A DNA stretch of 64,000 bases from Ferrovibrio terrae (GTDB lineage: Bacteria; Pseudomonadota; Alphaproteobacteria; Ferrovibrionales; Ferrovibrionaceae). The translations under genes and the position numbers were made by a program. Location of the stretch: positions 3,012,001 to 3,076,000 of the forward strand of contig NZ_CP041636.1 of NCBI RefSeq assembly GCF_007197755.1. The letters run 5' to 3'. Position 1 is the first letter of the stretch. Every line of letters begins with the position of its first letter. Shown in pieces: positions 8,914 to 51,076 of the stretch. The notes under the pieces are model-generated. The model searched no databases, was not told the DNA's origin, and saw nothing but the letters and a program-made list of their open reading frames with translations.

Positions 8914-9213
8914 TTACTTGATGACGAACGGCAGCAGGGCCAGATTGCGCGCGCGCTTGATGGCCTGGGCCAGTTCGCGCTGCTTCTTGGCCGACACTGC
9001 GGTGATCCGCGACGGAACGATCTTGCCGCGCTCGGAAATGAAGCGCGACAGCAGCTTCACGTCCTTGTAGTCGATCTTCGGCGCGTTGGCGCCGGAGAAC
9101 GGACAGGTCTTGCGACGGCGGAAGAACGGACGACGGGCGCCACCGGCGCCACCTGCGCCGCCGCGACCAGCGGGCTTGCCGCCACGATCAGAAGACGTAC
9201 CAGTGCTCGACAT
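8914..9213 (-). CDS. rpsR: 30S ribosomal protein S18
   Basis: A 99-residue small-subunit protein that binds 16S rRNA as a heterodimer with S6. The core RRKTCPFSG...[19 protein letters not shown] and the basic [21 protein letters not shown] are diagnostic. The N-terminus is extended by a glycine/arginine-rich stretch (about residues 1-27). The start overlaps the rpsF stop in TAATG, with a GGGGAG ribosome site inside rpsF, which fits equimolar S6/S18 synthesis. Confidence 0.97.
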
Positions 9214-9731
9214 TAGGCGTTCTCCCCAGCAGGAGCGGCGGCCGGAGCCGACTCTTCACGTTCAAAACGGGGACGACGCTCGCCGCGATCGCCACCGCGG
9301 TCGCCACGATCACCACCGCGATCGCCACGGTCGCCGCCGAAGCCGCGTCCGCCACCACCGAAGCCGCCACGATCACCGAAGCCACCGCGCTCCGGACGAT
9401 CACCGCGATCCTTGTTCACCAGGATGGCCGACTGGCCTTCGTCCAGCTTTTCCACGCGCACGGTCAGGTAACGCAGGATGTCTTCATGGATGCGCATGTT
9501 GCGCTCCATTTCGGCAATCGCAGCACCCGACGCAGTGATGTTCAGAAGGACGTAGTGGCCCTTCTTATTCTTCTTGATGCGATAGGTGAGATTGCGCAGG
9601 CCCCACTGCTCGGTCTTGGAGACCTCGCCGCCCTGGGCCTTGATGATATCGGTGAATTGCGCGGCCATCGCCTCGACCTGGGCGGTCGAGATGTCCTGAC
9701 GCGCGATGAAAACGTTCTCGTAGAACGCCAT
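9213..9731 (-). CDS. rpsF: 30S ribosomal protein S6 with RGG-like tail
   Basis: A 172-residue S6. The ferredoxin-like core (about 1-100) shows [30 protein letters not shown] and [15 protein letters not shown]. After it comes a low-complexity tail of DRGG/RGDRGG repeats (about 118-160), encoded by tandem GATCGCCACCGCGGTCGCC-like DNA at about 9280-9400. Extended S6 tails are known; RGG tracts usually bind RNA. The ribosome site AGAAGGAG precedes the ATG. The tail repeats are coding, not an independent repeat element. Confidence 0.96.
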
Positions 9732-10037: not shown

Positions 10038-10107
10038 CTTATCCGATGCTTATTCCGGCTTATTTGGCCCTTATAACGTCCTTATTTTCGCTTATACGAC
10101 CCTTTAT
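10038..10107. repeat. phased CTTAT array 1
   Basis: Seven CTTAT-type pentamers start at 10038, 10049, 10059, 10070, 10081, 10091 and 10103 (the last is TTTAT). The spacings are 11, 10, 11, 11, 10 and 12 bases, close to one DNA helical turn. The bases between units are not conserved except for frequent CCGG/CG. A second, longer array with the same pentamer and orientation lies at 50254-50400. Confidence 0.85.
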
Positions 10108-10320
10108 TCCATCCCTCGCGGCACCTCTCAGGAGCGGAAGTAAGCATGCACTGCCTCCAGGCGGCGGCGCGGCTGCATATATTCGTATTCACGATGTCAC
10201 CAGGATTTGGGCGCCAAGTTCAGGAACATTTAGTGTACACGAAGACGAGAGCAATATCAATTCAGGGCGTCCGCCGACGATCCTCGATTTTGCCGTCGCG
10301 ATGCGGCATTGAGGGCGGCC

Positions 10321-11238
10321 ATGACGACCACCGCCTATCTCGCCGCCGATGGATTTGAAGACCAGCTCCGTATCGAACTGGCCGCGCGGCTGCGCGCCGA
10401 GCATGGCCGGCTGCTGATTGCGGACGGCGAAGAGCCGGCAGCCTGGGCCGCCAACACCTGGTTTGATGTGCAGGAGACGCAGATCGGCTCGATCGGCGAT
10501 GCGGCCACGAAGCTGAAGGCGATCCAGCGTAACTGGGTGCCCTATGCGCCGCAGCATCATGGCCGCGCCAAGCTGATCACCGAGAAGCTGCCGCATGTCT
10601 CAGGCAAGGCGCTGACTTTCGGCGTGCCGCTGCCGGCAGCTCCCTTGGGCAGTTTCACCTTGCTGGCGCCGGATCGTCTGCTCTATGCGGCGCGCTGTTC
10701 AAGCCCGATGCCGAATGGCGAATTTGCCTTCAACGAGGATCGCGAGGGTCCGCCGAGCCGCGCCTATCTCAAACTCTGGGAAGGACTGACGCGGCATCGC
10801 CTGGAATTAGGCACTGATCTTCCGAAACCGGGCGATATCTGCCTCGATCTCGGCTCATCGCCCGGCGGCTGGACCTGGGTGCTCGGCTCGCTCGGCGCGA
10901 CGGTGACGGCGATCGACAAGGCGCCGCTGGCGCCGAATGTCGCCGCGATGAAGACAGTGCAGTGGAAGCAGGGCAGCGCCTTTGCGCTGGAACCGAAGGA
11001 ATTCCCGCGCGTCGACTGGCTCTGCTCGGATGTGATCTGCTATCCGGCGCGGCTGCTCAAGCTGGTGGAGCGTTGGCTCGCGGTATCCGATGTACGCAAC
11101 GCCGTCTGCACGCTGAAATTCCAGGGCGAGACGGATTTCGAGACGGCGCAGGGCTTCGCGGCCATCCCCGGCAGCCGCCTGCTGCACCTGCATCACAACA
11201 AGCATGAACTGACGTGGTTGTGGCGGCGGCCTGCGTAA
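10321..11238 (+). CDS. RlmM-like SAM-dependent rRNA 2'-O-methyltransferase
   Basis: A 305-residue FtsJ-fold methyltransferase. An N-terminal THUMP-like part precedes a Rossmann domain with the SAM motif CLDLGSSPGGWTWVLGSLGA. The K-D-K-E catalytic tetrad of 2'-O-ribose methyltransferases can be followed in AYLKLWE, CSDVICYP, CTLKFQG and KHELTWLW. The overall pattern is closest to RlmM, which modifies C2498 of 23S rRNA in E. coli, but the protein is shorter than the roughly 360-residue RlmM. The ATG at 10321 is preferred over an in-frame TTG four codons earlier. Gene stands alone. Confidence 0.8.
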   Translation: MTTTAYLAADGFEDQLRIELAARLRAEHGRLLIADGEEPAAWAANTWFDVQETQIGSIGDAATKLKAIQRNWVPYAPQHHGRAKLITEKLPHVSGKALTFGVPLPAAPLGSFTLLAPDRLLYAARCSSPMPNGEFAFNEDREGPPSRAYLKLWEGLTRHRLELGTDLPKPGDICLDLGSSPGGWTWVLGSLGATVTAIDKAPLAPNVAAMKTVQWKQGSAFALEPKEFPRVDWLCSDVICYPARLLKLVERWLAVSDVRNAVCTLKFQGETDFETAQGFAAIPGSRLLHLHHNKHELTWLWRRPA

Positions 11239-34033: not shown

Positions 34034-34780
34034 TCAGTAGCGGCGCAGCAGGCCGACCAGGCGGCCCTGCACCTTCACCCGGTCGGGGCCGAAGATGCGG
34101 GTCTCGTAAGCCGGGTTGGCGGCTTCGAGCGCCACCGAGTTGCCTTTGCGGCGCAGGCGCTTCAGCGTCACTTCCAGATCATCGACCAGCGCGACCACGA
34201 TAGTGCCGTTTTCGGCATTCTCGCTGCGCTGTATGATCACGGTATCGCCGTCCATGATACCGGCATCCATCATCGAATCGCCGGCGACTTCGAGCGCATA
34301 GTGTTCGCCATTGCCGAGCAGGCCGATCGGCACATCGATCTGCGTGCTCATGTCGCGCAGCGCCTCGATCGGCGTACCGGCGGCGATGCGGCCATAGAGC
34401 GGCAGCGTGACGATGTCGCGTGCGTTATAGGGATTGACGCTCACCGGGGTGCCCGGCATCGGCGCGTTCGGGTTGCCCTCGACCACGCGCGGCATCAGGC
34501 GATTGCGCGGTGCGGCCGTCGGGCGGGTGGCGGTGGCGCCGATGCCGCCGCGGGTCGGCACGGCCGAATCGGGCAAGCGCAGCACTTCGAGCGCGCGGGC
34601 GCGATGGGCGAGGCGGCGGATGAAGCCACGCTCCTCCAGGCCGGTCACCAGCCGGTGGATACCGGACTTGGATTTCAGCTTCATCGCTTCCTTCATTTCC
34701 TCGAAGGAGGGAGAGACGCCGGAATTCTCCAGCTTCTCGTGGATGAAAATCAGCAGGTCGTGCTGCTTGCGGGTCAGCAT
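34034..34780 (-). CDS. lexA: LexA repressor
   Basis: A 248-residue SOS repressor. The winged helix domain begins [17 protein letters not shown], with recognition region [19 protein letters not shown]. The self-cleavage bond is Ala134-Gly135 ([10 protein letters not shown]), and the catalytic dyad is Ser169 (GDSMMDAG) and Lys207 (VTLKRL). An alphaproteobacterial-type linker of about 50 residues makes it longer than E. coli LexA. The ATG at 34780 has an AGGAGG ribosome site; an upstream start 13 codons earlier is not supported. A LexA box overlaps its own -10, showing autoregulation. Confidence 0.97.
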
Positions 34781-34873: not shown

Positions 34874-34888
34874 GTTCTAATGAGGTTC
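34874..34888 (-). promoter_or_regulatory. LexA operator (SOS box) of lexA
   Basis: GTTC-TAATGAG-GTTC, an exact match to the alphaproteobacterial direct-repeat LexA site GTTC-N7-GTTC. It overlaps the proposed -10 box (34874-34879). Confidence 0.88.
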
Positions 34889-49226: not shown

Positions 49227-50246
49227 ATGGGCAAGGTCGAGCGGGACGAAGACGGCGCAATCGCGGCCCTGAAACAGGTTGCCGCGCAGTTTGCCGTTGC
49301 TGTCACGCCGCATCTTCAGGCGCAGATCGACCCGAGCGATCCGAAAGATCCGATCGCGCGCCAGTTCCTGCCCGATGCGGCCGAACTGGTGACGCATGAG
49401 CACGAGCGCGGCGATCCCATCGGAGACGACGCGCACAGCCCGGTGCCGGGCATCGTGCATCGCTATCCCGACCGCGTGCTGCTGAAACTCGTCAACGTCT
49501 GCCCGGTCTACTGCCGCTTCTGCTTCCGCCGCGAGATGGTGGGGCCGGGCTCGAAAGGCCTGAGCGCCGAGCAGCTCGATGCGGCGATCGACTATATCGC
49601 GCAGCATCCGGCGATCTGGGAAGTGATCCTCACCGGCGGCGATCCGCTGATCGTGTCGCCGCGCCGCCTGAAACAGGTGATCGCGCGGCTGAACGCGATC
49701 CCGCATCTGGGCGTGATCCGGCTGCATTCCCGCGTGCCGGTGGTCGATCCAGCAAAGATCAACGACGTGATGATCGACGCGCTGAAATCGAGCGAGAAAG
49801 CCGTGTGGCTGCTGCTGCATGCCAACCATGCGCGCGAGTTCGTGCCTGAAGCGACGGCGGCGATCCGCAGACTGGTGGAGGCCGGCGTGCCGATGCTGGG
49901 TCAGTCGGTGCTGCTCAAGGGCATCAACGACAGCCCGGCGGCGCTCACCGACCTGTTCCGCGCCATGGTCGCCAACCGCATCAAGCCGCATTACCTGCAT
50001 CACGGCGACCTGGCGCGCGGCACCAGCCATTTCCGCCTGTCGCTGGCCGAGGGCCAGAACCTGATGCGCCGCCTGCGCGGGCATACCTCGGGCCTGCTGC
50101 AGCCGACCTACATCCTCGATATCCCCGGCGGCCACGGGAAGGTGCCGGTCGGGCCGGGCTATGCCGAGCCGAACGAAGACGGCAGCTGGACCGTCACCGA
50201 TCCCTGGGGCTGTTCGCATCCCTACGACGATCCGGCGGTACGTTAG
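49227..50246 (+). CDS. radical-SAM lysine 2,3-aminomutase family protein (EpmB/KamA-like)
   Basis: A 339-residue PLP/radical-SAM enzyme. The 4Fe-4S cysteines are Cys92, Cys96 and Cys99 in CPVYCRFCFRR. The TGGDPLIVSP loop and the late DIPGGHGKVPVG, with the presumed PLP lysine, are KamA-type. The length is close to EpmB (about 342), which converts alpha- to beta-lysine for elongation factor P modification, and shorter than catabolic KamA (about 415). efp and epmA are not in the window. It starts three bases after tpiA, so it is cotranscribed with a glycolytic gene. Confidence 0.85.
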   Translation: MGKVERDEDGAIAALKQVAAQFAVAVTPHLQAQIDPSDPKDPIARQFLPDAAELVTHEHERGDPIGDDAHSPVPGIVHRYPDRVLLKLVNVCPVYCRFCFRREMVGPGSKGLSAEQLDAAIDYIAQHPAIWEVILTGGDPLIVSPRRLKQVIARLNAIPHLGVIRLHSRVPVVDPAKINDVMIDALKSSEKAVWLLLHANHAREFVPEATAAIRRLVEAGVPMLGQSVLLKGINDSPAALTDLFRAMVANRIKPHYLHHGDLARGTSHFRLSLAEGQNLMRRLRGHTSGLLQPTYILDIPGGHGKVPVGPGYAEPNEDGSWTVTDPWGCSHPYDDPAVR

Positions 50247-50253
50247 TCGAAGG

Positions 50254-50400
50254 CTTATCCGGTCTGGGCCGGGGCTTATTCCGGCTGGGGCGATGCTTAT
50301 TTATGCTTATTCCGCTTATCCGAGCGTATCGGCACTTATCCCGGCTTATCTGTGGCTATCTCGGCGTATCTGCGCCTATTTCAGCTTAATTTCTGATTAT
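50254..50400. repeat. phased CTTAT array 2
   Basis: CTTAT-like pentamers (some CGTAT, CCTAT, GCTAT, CTTAA or ATTAT) start at 50254, 50275, 50296, 50306, 50315, 50325, 50335, 50345, 50355, 50365, 50375, 50385 and 50396. From 50296 onward the spacing is 9-11, mostly exactly 10 bases. The loose decamer consensus is NCGGCTTATC. The orientation is the same as in array 1 at 10038. It lies directly after the aminomutase stop. Confidence 0.88.
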
Positions 50401-50424: not shown

Positions 50425-50525
50425 GTCGTCATGCTCGGCCTTGTGCCGAGCATCCCTTTCCTTTTCGCTGGTCATGACCTGGCAGAACGGACAGGTGGAT
50501 CCCCGGGACAAGCCCGAGGAGACGG
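50425..50525. repeat. dispersed GC-rich palindromic repeat (copy 3, degraded)
   Basis: GTCATGCTCGGCCTTGTGCC-GAGCATCC forms a stem-loop at about 50428-50456. A second half, TGGATCCCCGGGACAAGCCC-GAGGAGACG at about 50496-50525, matches the family theme GGGxCAAGCCC. The two are separated by unrelated sequence, so the element looks broken. Confidence 0.6.
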
Positions 50526-50758
50526 TGGTGTGAGGGCTGTGGGCACGGGCAGGGCGGCGCCTGATCTGGCGCAATCCCATATTCATCGCGCCAGGCGGTC
50601 GGGCGCTGTCCAGCGGGCAGAAATCTACCAAAGAACAATAATAGAACATTCCCCAAAAGTCAAGTCCGGCCCGCAGCCTGCAAGCTTCGCGGCGGCAGGC
50701 CCTTTCCCTCTCCGCCGTCACGGTGTAAAAGCCCCCGGACTTTGGAGATTCAGAACCC

Positions 50759-51076
50759 ATGATGACCTTCCTTCTGGTGGTGCATATCCTGCTGGCGCTG
50801 GCGCTGATCGGCGTCATCCTGGTGCAGCGTTCGGAAGGCGGCGCGCTCGGTATGGGCGGCGGTGGCGGCGGCGGTTTCATGACCGCGCGTGGCTCGGCCA
50901 ACCTGCTGACCCGCACCACGGCGGTTCTGGCGACCCTGTTCATCATCTCGAGCATCGTGCTGGCGATTCTCGCCGGCGGTCACTCGCGGCCGACCTCGAT
51001 TCTCGATTCGGCTCCGGCCGCGACTCCGGGCGCACCCGCCGAACCGGCCAAGCCTGCCGTCCCGCTGTCGCAGTAA
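50759..51076 (+). CDS. secG: preprotein translocase subunit SecG
   Basis: A 105-residue Sec translocon component with two membrane helices (LVVHILLALALIGVILVQ and TAVLATLFIISSIVLAIL) flanking the conserved glycine-rich loop SEGGALGMGGGGGGGFMTARGSANLLTR. The C-terminus is an Ala/Pro-rich tail. It sits between the tpiA group and pyrG, the usual alphaproteobacterial position. A GGAG ribosome site lies upstream of the double ATG; the second ATG at 50762 is also possible. Confidence 0.94.
   Translation: MMTFLLVVHILLALALIGVILVQRSEGGALGMGGGGGGGFMTARGSANLLTRTTAVLATLFIISSIVLAILAGGHSRPTSILDSAPAATPGAPAEPAKPAVPLSQ

Follow-up and report, generated by a model that had tools for sequence, protein, structure and literature searches.

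Helically phased arrays of short words recur at intergenic sites in Ferrovibrio, usually beside a LexA-operator-like box

Two phased arrays in a 64-kb window

We analyzed a stretch of 64,000 nucleotides (the window) from a Ferrovibrio genome, G000, which is a single contig of 4,264,634 bp. One array of CTTAT-like pentamers lies between an EpmB-like gene and secG, and another lies between rpsF and a gene for an FtsJ-like methyltransferase domain protein (Table 1).

Table 1. Arrays, companion boxes and neighboring genes in the window
Feature	Position	Strand	Remark
rpsF (ribosomal protein S6), left neighbor of the second array	9213..9731	-	Pfam
Second array, six exact CTTAT, steps of 11, 10, 11, 11, and 10	10038..10095	+	
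Box GAACATTTAGTGTACA, 3' of the second array	10224..10239	+	
FtsJ-like methyltransferase domain protein, right neighbor of the second array	10321..11238	+	Pfam
lexA, yardstick for the box	34034..34780	-	Pfam
GAACCTCATTAGAAC upstream of lexA, GAAC-N7-GAAC layout like the array boxes	34874..34888	-	
EpmB-like gene (radical-SAM/lysine-2,3-aminomutase family), left neighbor of the first array	49227..50246	+	Pfam
Phased array, 13 CTTAT-like units (7 exact)	50254..50400	+	directly past the stop codon of the EpmB-like gene
Box GAACAATAATAGAACA, GAAC-N7-GAAC, LexA-operator-like, 3' of the first array	50633..50648	+	
Promoter-like signal aimed into the first array	50635..50663	-	consensus match only
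secG, right neighbor of the first array	50759..51076	+	Pfam

The units of the array at the EpmB locus begin at 50254, 50275, 50296, 50306, 50315, 50325, 50335, 50345, 50355, 50365, 50375, 50385, and 50396, giving steps of 21, 21, 10, 9, seven times 10, and then 11. These steps agree with the sequence-only reading of this DNA, which had described pentamers at nearly 10-base intervals from 50296 to 50396 after two 21-base steps. The inexact units are CGTAT (twice), GCTAT, CCTAT, CTTAA, and ATTAT. We counted eight pairs of TA steps at lag 10, a number reached in 0 of 5000 dinucleotide shuffles; none of the 5000 matched this pairing even at the best of lags 5 to 30, nor did any other 120-bp stretch within the window. 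Because too many of its units are inexact, the array fell below the threshold of our word-agnostic scan; the evidence for it is the TA test together with the arrays present at the same locus in genomes G001, G002, and G005. The array is confirmed as real.

The same reading had set the array apart from CRISPRs, REP elements, and coding repeats, and we agree. The word is 5 bp long with spacers of 5 to 6 bp, the CTTAT-N5-6 units are direct repeats, the REP-like hairpins adjoin the EpmB array, and it is no coding repeat. Among 80 arrays collected from several genomes (see below), two overlap a called gene and the sites are mostly intergenic, genes at array loci having been called with a codon-usage caller. 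The hairpins are palindromes between the EpmB array and its box, at 50431-50453 (ATGCTCGGCCTTGTGCCGAGCAT) and at about 50495-50520 (CCCCGGGACAAGCCCGAGG-like); similar palindromes also lie past arrays in G001, G002, and G005.

The array at the rpsF locus, which the earlier reading missed, is cleaner than the one at the EpmB locus. It was the sole array at threshold in the word-agnostic scan of the window, for which 40 shuffles yielded one match, at the lowest score. The strict CTTAT pattern occurred in 0 of 100 shuffles of the window.

Recurrence, pitch, and change of word among genomes

We searched 41 genomes on both strands with the pattern CTTAT-N5-6-CTTAT-N5-6-CTTAT, using the reversed pattern as the control. 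Matches (control in parentheses) numbered 9 (2) in G000, 63 (1) in G001, 72 (0) in G002, 40 (5) in G003, 29 (0) in G005, 10 (1) in G009, 1 (0) in G008, 1 (0) in G037, and 6 (0) in G010, which belongs to another genus of the family. The remaining 32 of the 41 genomes, including the congeners G004, G006, and G007, had no match. Once overlaps were merged, there were 19 loci in G001, 26 in G002, 8 in G003, 12 in G005, 2 in G009, and 6 in G010; with seven arrays of G000, these make up the set of 80. Two of the seven were picked up by a looser pattern that also matched the control often (11 matches versus 8 in the control); of its matches we retained six additional units or loci (L225, L226, and known ones) and dropped L061. 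Recurrence had been expected of a functional element, and CTTAT-N5-6 arrays were indeed found at many loci in several Ferrovibrio genomes.

Other words form arrays as well. TTCGT arrays gave 26 matches in G000, 26 in G001, 61 in G002, 45 in G005, 28 in G008, and 1 in G014, with at most 1 in the control and none in 35 further genomes. GCCAAT arrays gave 8 matches in G008 and 15, with another spacer make-up, in G016, which is of another genus (control, 0); 16 other genomes had none. Arrays of the GTTTCGTCC type gave 8 matches in G000 (control, 0) and none in 17 other genomes. A GTTTTGC-like type was recognized by eye in G008 at L317, L319, and L323, where the scan scored 0, 3.5 (for another word), and 3.0. 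Separately, TGATATCA words are repeated directly 5' of arrays with different words at L004, L249, L254, L313, L317, and L323.

The mean of the 10/11-bp steps was about 10.5 to 10.6 in G000, G001, G002, and G005 and 10.0 in G003, G009, and G010; TTCGT arrays mostly keep to 10. Alternation of 10 and 11 was above chance in G001, G002, and G005, where it was reached by 0, 4, and 0 of 2000 shuffles, respectively, and not above chance in G000, where 1121 of 2000 shuffles reached it. Since the search pattern itself demands steps of 10 to 11 bp, we made two tests free of that demand. On the 5' side of 40 loci chosen by the companion box described below, identical 5-mers recurred 510, 520, 377, and 361 times at lags 10, 20, 30, and 40 and 13 to 88 times at every other lag within 5 to 45. 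Twenty shuffles gave at most 46 at any lag, and no comparable peaks appeared 3' of the box. In the other test, we went outward from the first pattern match of each array; every further CTTAT up to 45 bp away on either side lay at 10 to 11 bp (61 cases), 20 to 22 bp (23), 30 to 34 bp (9), or 42 to 44 bp (4), and at no other distance among the 97 cases. The proposal that phasing is what the arrays preserve thus holds, with 10-bp periodicity above shuffles also at loci picked by the box alone. The accompanying proposal, that a TA step is the essential feature, is not supported: CTTAT arrays have phased T-A steps, and the sister arrays use TTCGT or GCCAAT, which have none in the word. The 10.0-bp pitch of some arrays would be more in keeping with protein-wrapped DNA than with free B-DNA.

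The arrays also occupy shared places. Of the 26 arrays of G002, 23 have a counterpart (array or box locus) in another genome with a flank similarity of at least 450 bits, both flanks having been checked only for the groups used to compare words. To judge from their translations, the neighbors resemble housekeeping genes (alaS, purB, miaB, mnmA, aroQ, rpsF, and an ndk-like gene), of which only rpsF was Pfam-tested. Across 17 pairs of homologous loci in G001 and G002, with alignable flanks 84.7% identical over 45 kb, 432/448 word positions (96%) and 266/428 spacer positions (62%) were identical, the word figure being inflated by the selection of arrays through exact CTTAT words. The EpmB locus, found through its gene, had words 93% and spacers 65% identical. 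Spacer identity was 62% between homologous and 56% between nonhomologous loci (272 pairs; P = 0.017). Homology therefore shows weakly in the spacers, and with homologous spacers so little closer than nonhomologous ones, the arrays may have been re-made rather than kept.

The word itself differs between genomes at four homologous loci where both flanks can be aligned. L309 has the GTTTCGTCC type and L245 and L189 have CTTAT (flanks of 755 and 447 bp, 92.7% and 79.4% identical, respectively); L322 has GCCAA and the L224 group has CTTAT (637 and 383 bp, 87.0% and 79.4%). In the other two comparisons, TTCGT stands where the counterparts have CTTAT: L307 with L232, L195, and L252 (819 and 744 bp, 91.8% and 76.5%) and L298 with L253 (822 and 111 bp, 90.1% and 77.5%). 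Four other loci differ in word with one alignable flank only. CTTAT and TTCGT are three transitions apart, and the imperfect units include the intermediates CTTGT and CTCGT.

The companion box

Ferrovibrio arrays usually have on their 3' side an oriented box, GAAC-N7-GWAC, that resembles a LexA operator. Forward GAACAWW occurred 42 times within 100 bp 3' of the 80 arrays, compared to 0 or 1 time in each 100-bp bin of the preceding 1000 bp. A trained motif placed the box (score >8) within 400 bp 3' of 56 of the 80 arrays, training and scoring having been done on the same loci. The TTCGT arrays were examined at 20 array-chosen loci, one of them (L470) a box locus known beforehand and another (L477) dropped because it had no chain at threshold. 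A box (score >14) was found 3' of 18 of the remaining 19 arrays, in 14 cases on the array strand and in 6 reversed, 2 having both. On the 5' side, 0 of 19 reached that score, the highest being a single 10.8 on the reverse strand.

We also started from the boxes. Forty array-independent boxes, comprising 16 of the 21 strict boxes of G000, 13 of the 22 of G002, and all 11 of G008, were taken; boxes beside known CTTAT arrays and two others are left out of this sample. Twenty of the 40 had a 5' array of any word with a score of at least 4, a score that 0 of 2000 shuffled 5' flanks reached, and the other 20 had no clear one. Two had an array on the 3' side; these two loci are homologs in reverse orientation. 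Strict box matches numbered 11 to 22 each in G000, G001, G002, G005, and G008, 1 to 5 in other Ferrovibrio genomes, and 0 to 8 in the other genomes searched. The window has two strong strict boxes, both beside arrays, and the third, weak one is the lexA operator. In G016, a genus apart within the family, short GCCAATTCGA arrays with 10-bp steps occur at 15 places (L483 to L497). They mostly lack the box, which was found at 1 of 10 loci after L484, L487, L488, L493, and L496 gave no chain.

The LexA operator layout GTTC-N7-GTTC is present at most arrays as GAAC-N7-G[AT]AC, and lexA has the same layout. The match is partial, as the second half-site is often GTAC or CAAC. GTTC-N7-GTTC is described as the LexA box of Caulobacter (PMC12700426). 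The arrays' box shares this layout, but the array neighbors that we read are mostly housekeeping genes (alaS, purB, miaB, etc.) and form no recognizable SOS set. On these grounds, control of SOS genes found no support. The promoter-like signal at the EpmB locus, which overlaps the box, consists of TTGACT at 50658-50663 and TATTGT at 50635-50640 on the minus strand, 17 bp apart.

Several further motifs were seen around the box. Two GTGAAAC words 12 to 14 bp apart, which we take to resemble half a parS site, lie between array and box at L191, L194, L197, L206, L209, L213, L244, and L256. A full TGTTTCACGTGAAACA, presumably parS-like, lies about 20 bp (L202) and about 100 bp (L243) 5' of the array. 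TTCTCC(T/C)TGTCCA or TTCACGATG-CAACA motifs occur between array and box whatever the word (L195, L252, L253, L298, L307, and others). At L321 and L336, array-less boxes lie upstream of two small proteins that by eye share similar W..A..LI..GGT...VA..LGC motifs.

Candidate explanations and known systems

The arrays have in common a polar companion box and a short exact word that occurs once per turn and varies far less than the spacers. A cooperative protein platform on one face of the helix would require these features, and we put at roughly 50% the probability that the arrays are docking platforms for a putative oligomerizing DNA-binding protein that contacts one helix face. This explanation agrees with the landing strip for a nucleoid or regulatory protein that the sequence-only reading had put forward as a possibility. 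Each array would be a multi-site platform for a sequence-specific protein assembling as a filament or ring, with one subunit per pentamer per helical turn and the 5 to 6 bp between words acting as spacing only. With one pentamer read per turn, all contacts would fall on one face. The Ferrovibrio platform would usually sit beside the LexA-operator-like box, overlapping a promoter-like signal aimed into the array. Its likely role would be architectural or silencing, in that a bound patch could bridge or wrap DNA and block or tune local transcription. As the specificity of the protein drifted, arrays would turn over to a new word, with the site, the pitch, and the box staying in place.

A bolder version, which we offer tentatively as a possibility, is that of word-switching platforms at fixed intergenic sites beside an SOS-type box, rewritten array by array after a fast-evolving oligomeric protein, much like the turnover of centromere satellites or PRDM9 motifs. 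If the arrays are platforms, they would constitute a chromosomal architecture or silencing system whose code is a short word read once per turn, the word being changeable while pitch and place stay. Nature would then have supplied sets of matched sites that differ in word at a single locus, ideally suited to studying how binding specificity and genome-wide site sets change together.

Several points weigh against docking platforms: the pitch is unsteady, the alternation of steps in G000 is at chance level, word identity is inflated by the selection, spacers at homologous loci are hardly closer than elsewhere, 20 of the 40 strict boxes lack a clear 5' array, G016 arrays mostly lack the box, and MucR does not track arrays. 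MucR, the best-known oligomeric candidate, was considered as the discriminating binder and rejected. Of 18 genomes of the order, 17 have it whether or not they carry arrays, and it is single-copy in 9 of 10 Ferrovibrio genomes, including the array-free G004, G006, and G007, with none found in the 72%-complete G009; since array-free genomes have it too, its presence does not follow that of the arrays.

The main rivals are a dispersed or mobile repeat and a transcribed leader. The former, which strikes us as somewhat unlikely, would be a dispersed repeat or non-autonomous mobile element with the words as recombinase or transposase sites at one end and the box as its other part, bringing the host no gain, and each word type would be a family re-entering favored intergenic sites. 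Array plus box do form a composite, polar unit, and the word differs wholesale at homologous loci. At the rpsF locus, both flanks align in the same direction among G000, G002, and G005, yet the array of G000 runs opposite to the other two. Arrays of G002 and G001 share unit orders, e.g., CTTATTTTTG and then CTTATTTGACC/T, and the spacing between the EpmB-like gene and secG is 443 to 565 bp in G000 to G002 versus 6 bp in G003 and G009. The arrays could turn out to be ordinary dispersed repeats. However, with 23 of the 26 G002 loci having a homologous array or box locus elsewhere, movement would have to be rare; an unsystematic look established no terminal inverted repeats or target duplications, and no clean empty site was found in a close relative. 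Mobile repeats, if that is what the arrays are, would have at their ends phased recombinase arrays of a new kind.

A transcribed leader or small RNA, with the box as promoter and the array read as (AUAAG-N5-6)n or (ACGAA-N5)n by an RNA-binding protein, is unlikely. At 79 boxes with arrays, a promoter-like match of at least 9/12 pointed into the array in 39%, compared to 9% with shuffled -35 regions, a test that is partly circular for the 56 CTTAT boxes because the motif that placed them included -35 columns. The rightward figures were 13% versus 7%, and 17 boxes without a clear array gave 24% in the into-array direction and 18% rightward. Against a leader, single-stranded RNA needs no strict helical pitch, the genes flanking 77 arrays are variously tandem (37), divergent (23), or convergent (17), and Rfam, at the gathering threshold, found no family at any array in 20 loci. 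At the EpmB locus, Rfam gave one sub-threshold match only. Two related roles were rejected: Rho-type termination, as 23 of the 77 arrays lie in divergent regions where neither neighbor would transcribe them, and a plain promoter element for the neighbors, as 17 of the 77 lie between convergent genes. The window offers a small comparison sample, its gaps of at least 150 bp being 10 tandem, 6 divergent, and 0 convergent.

Neutral minisatellite growth of a 10- to 11-bp unit is very unlikely. It would account for tandem arrays, variable spacers, and the more degenerate ends, but not for words so much more alike than spacers (even allowing for the selection on exact words), nor for the one-sided box and the shared sites. 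The plain expanding decamer considered by the sequence-only reading likewise leaves the one-sided box and the change of word at one locus unexplained. Two further suggestions of that reading are not supported. For a link to DnaA boxes, we found 0 TTATNCACA sites in the 6745 bp of the 80 arrays, and only 52 of 473 CTTAT units have CC after them. Intrinsically curved DNA, in which sequence would matter only through shape, is the least probable explanation: CTTAT arrays show strong A/T phasing (mean z of about 4.5 to 4.7) but TTCGT arrays only weak phasing (z of 1.4), each array keeps one exact word, and the predicted static bend, computed with roll and twist values from general knowledge, is about 1 to 1.5 standard deviations above shuffles (z of 0.9 to 1.45 in all array classes), so shape alone does not unite the words.

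In a mainly open-access literature on phased or dispersed intergenic repeats and on Ferrovibrio, Alphaproteobacteria, and Rhodospirillaceae, we found no such system among the matches listed; what would be new is the combination of features. The closest case among them is the TAACTGA direct repeats of Beggiatoaceae, short words dispersed in intergenic regions like the arrays, with 169 sets in one genome and an unproven function (MacGregor 2015, PMC4679880). Unlike the arrays, these have one fixed heptamer, most lie just before start codons, and the abstract mentions no helical phasing, companion box, or word change (PMC4679880). The parC iterons of plasmid R1, bound by ParR, are reported as two sets of five, a 22-bp fragment holding two iterons of about 11 bp each (PMC4949242). 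They resemble the arrays as phased direct repeats, there for cooperative binding, but belong in that account to one plasmid locus with its own parMR, whereas the arrays occupy many chromosomal sites (PMC4949242). By eye, no parR/parM-like genes were recognized beside arrays among the translated neighbors in three genomes.

The MraZ repeats of Mollicutes, given as (AAAGTGKN3)3, likewise place a short word every 10 bp and are bound by a ring-forming protein (PMC5282649). They are described as about three repeats of one word at a promoter, in contrast to arrays of up to 12 or 13 units in several words (PMC5282649). Ros/MucR proteins are described as alphaproteobacterial H-NS-like proteins that form circular oligomers and bridge DNA at AT-rich targets with T-A steps (PMC11662661, PMC7277663). 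Such targets are presented as loosely AT-rich, not as phased words like those of the arrays (PMC11662661, PMC7277663). By analogy, rings of the MucR type (PMC11662661) would suit CTTAT through their T-A step preference (PMC7277663) and would not suit the other words.

Stretches chosen blind to arrays had no chain with a score of at least 4 in G006 (200 kb), G007 (103 kb), G008 (140 kb), or G011 (120 kb), samples too small to prove absence because G008 does carry arrays. The stretch of G010 (140 kb) had one chain, of four CAGGC words at 11-bp steps (L371:1794-1831), which could be due to chance at the shuffle background of one in 2.09 Mb. A viral scan gave 77 stretches, three of which passed the filter for long chains and varied spacers. 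Taken with the viral loci, a scan of wider taxa, seven Ferrovibrio/G001 records being excluded, yielded at least 10 long chains with varied spacers. The matches listed include L107:2618 of a Bacteroidetes MAG, which has nine ATAAG words (the reverse of CTTAT) at 10/11-bp steps.
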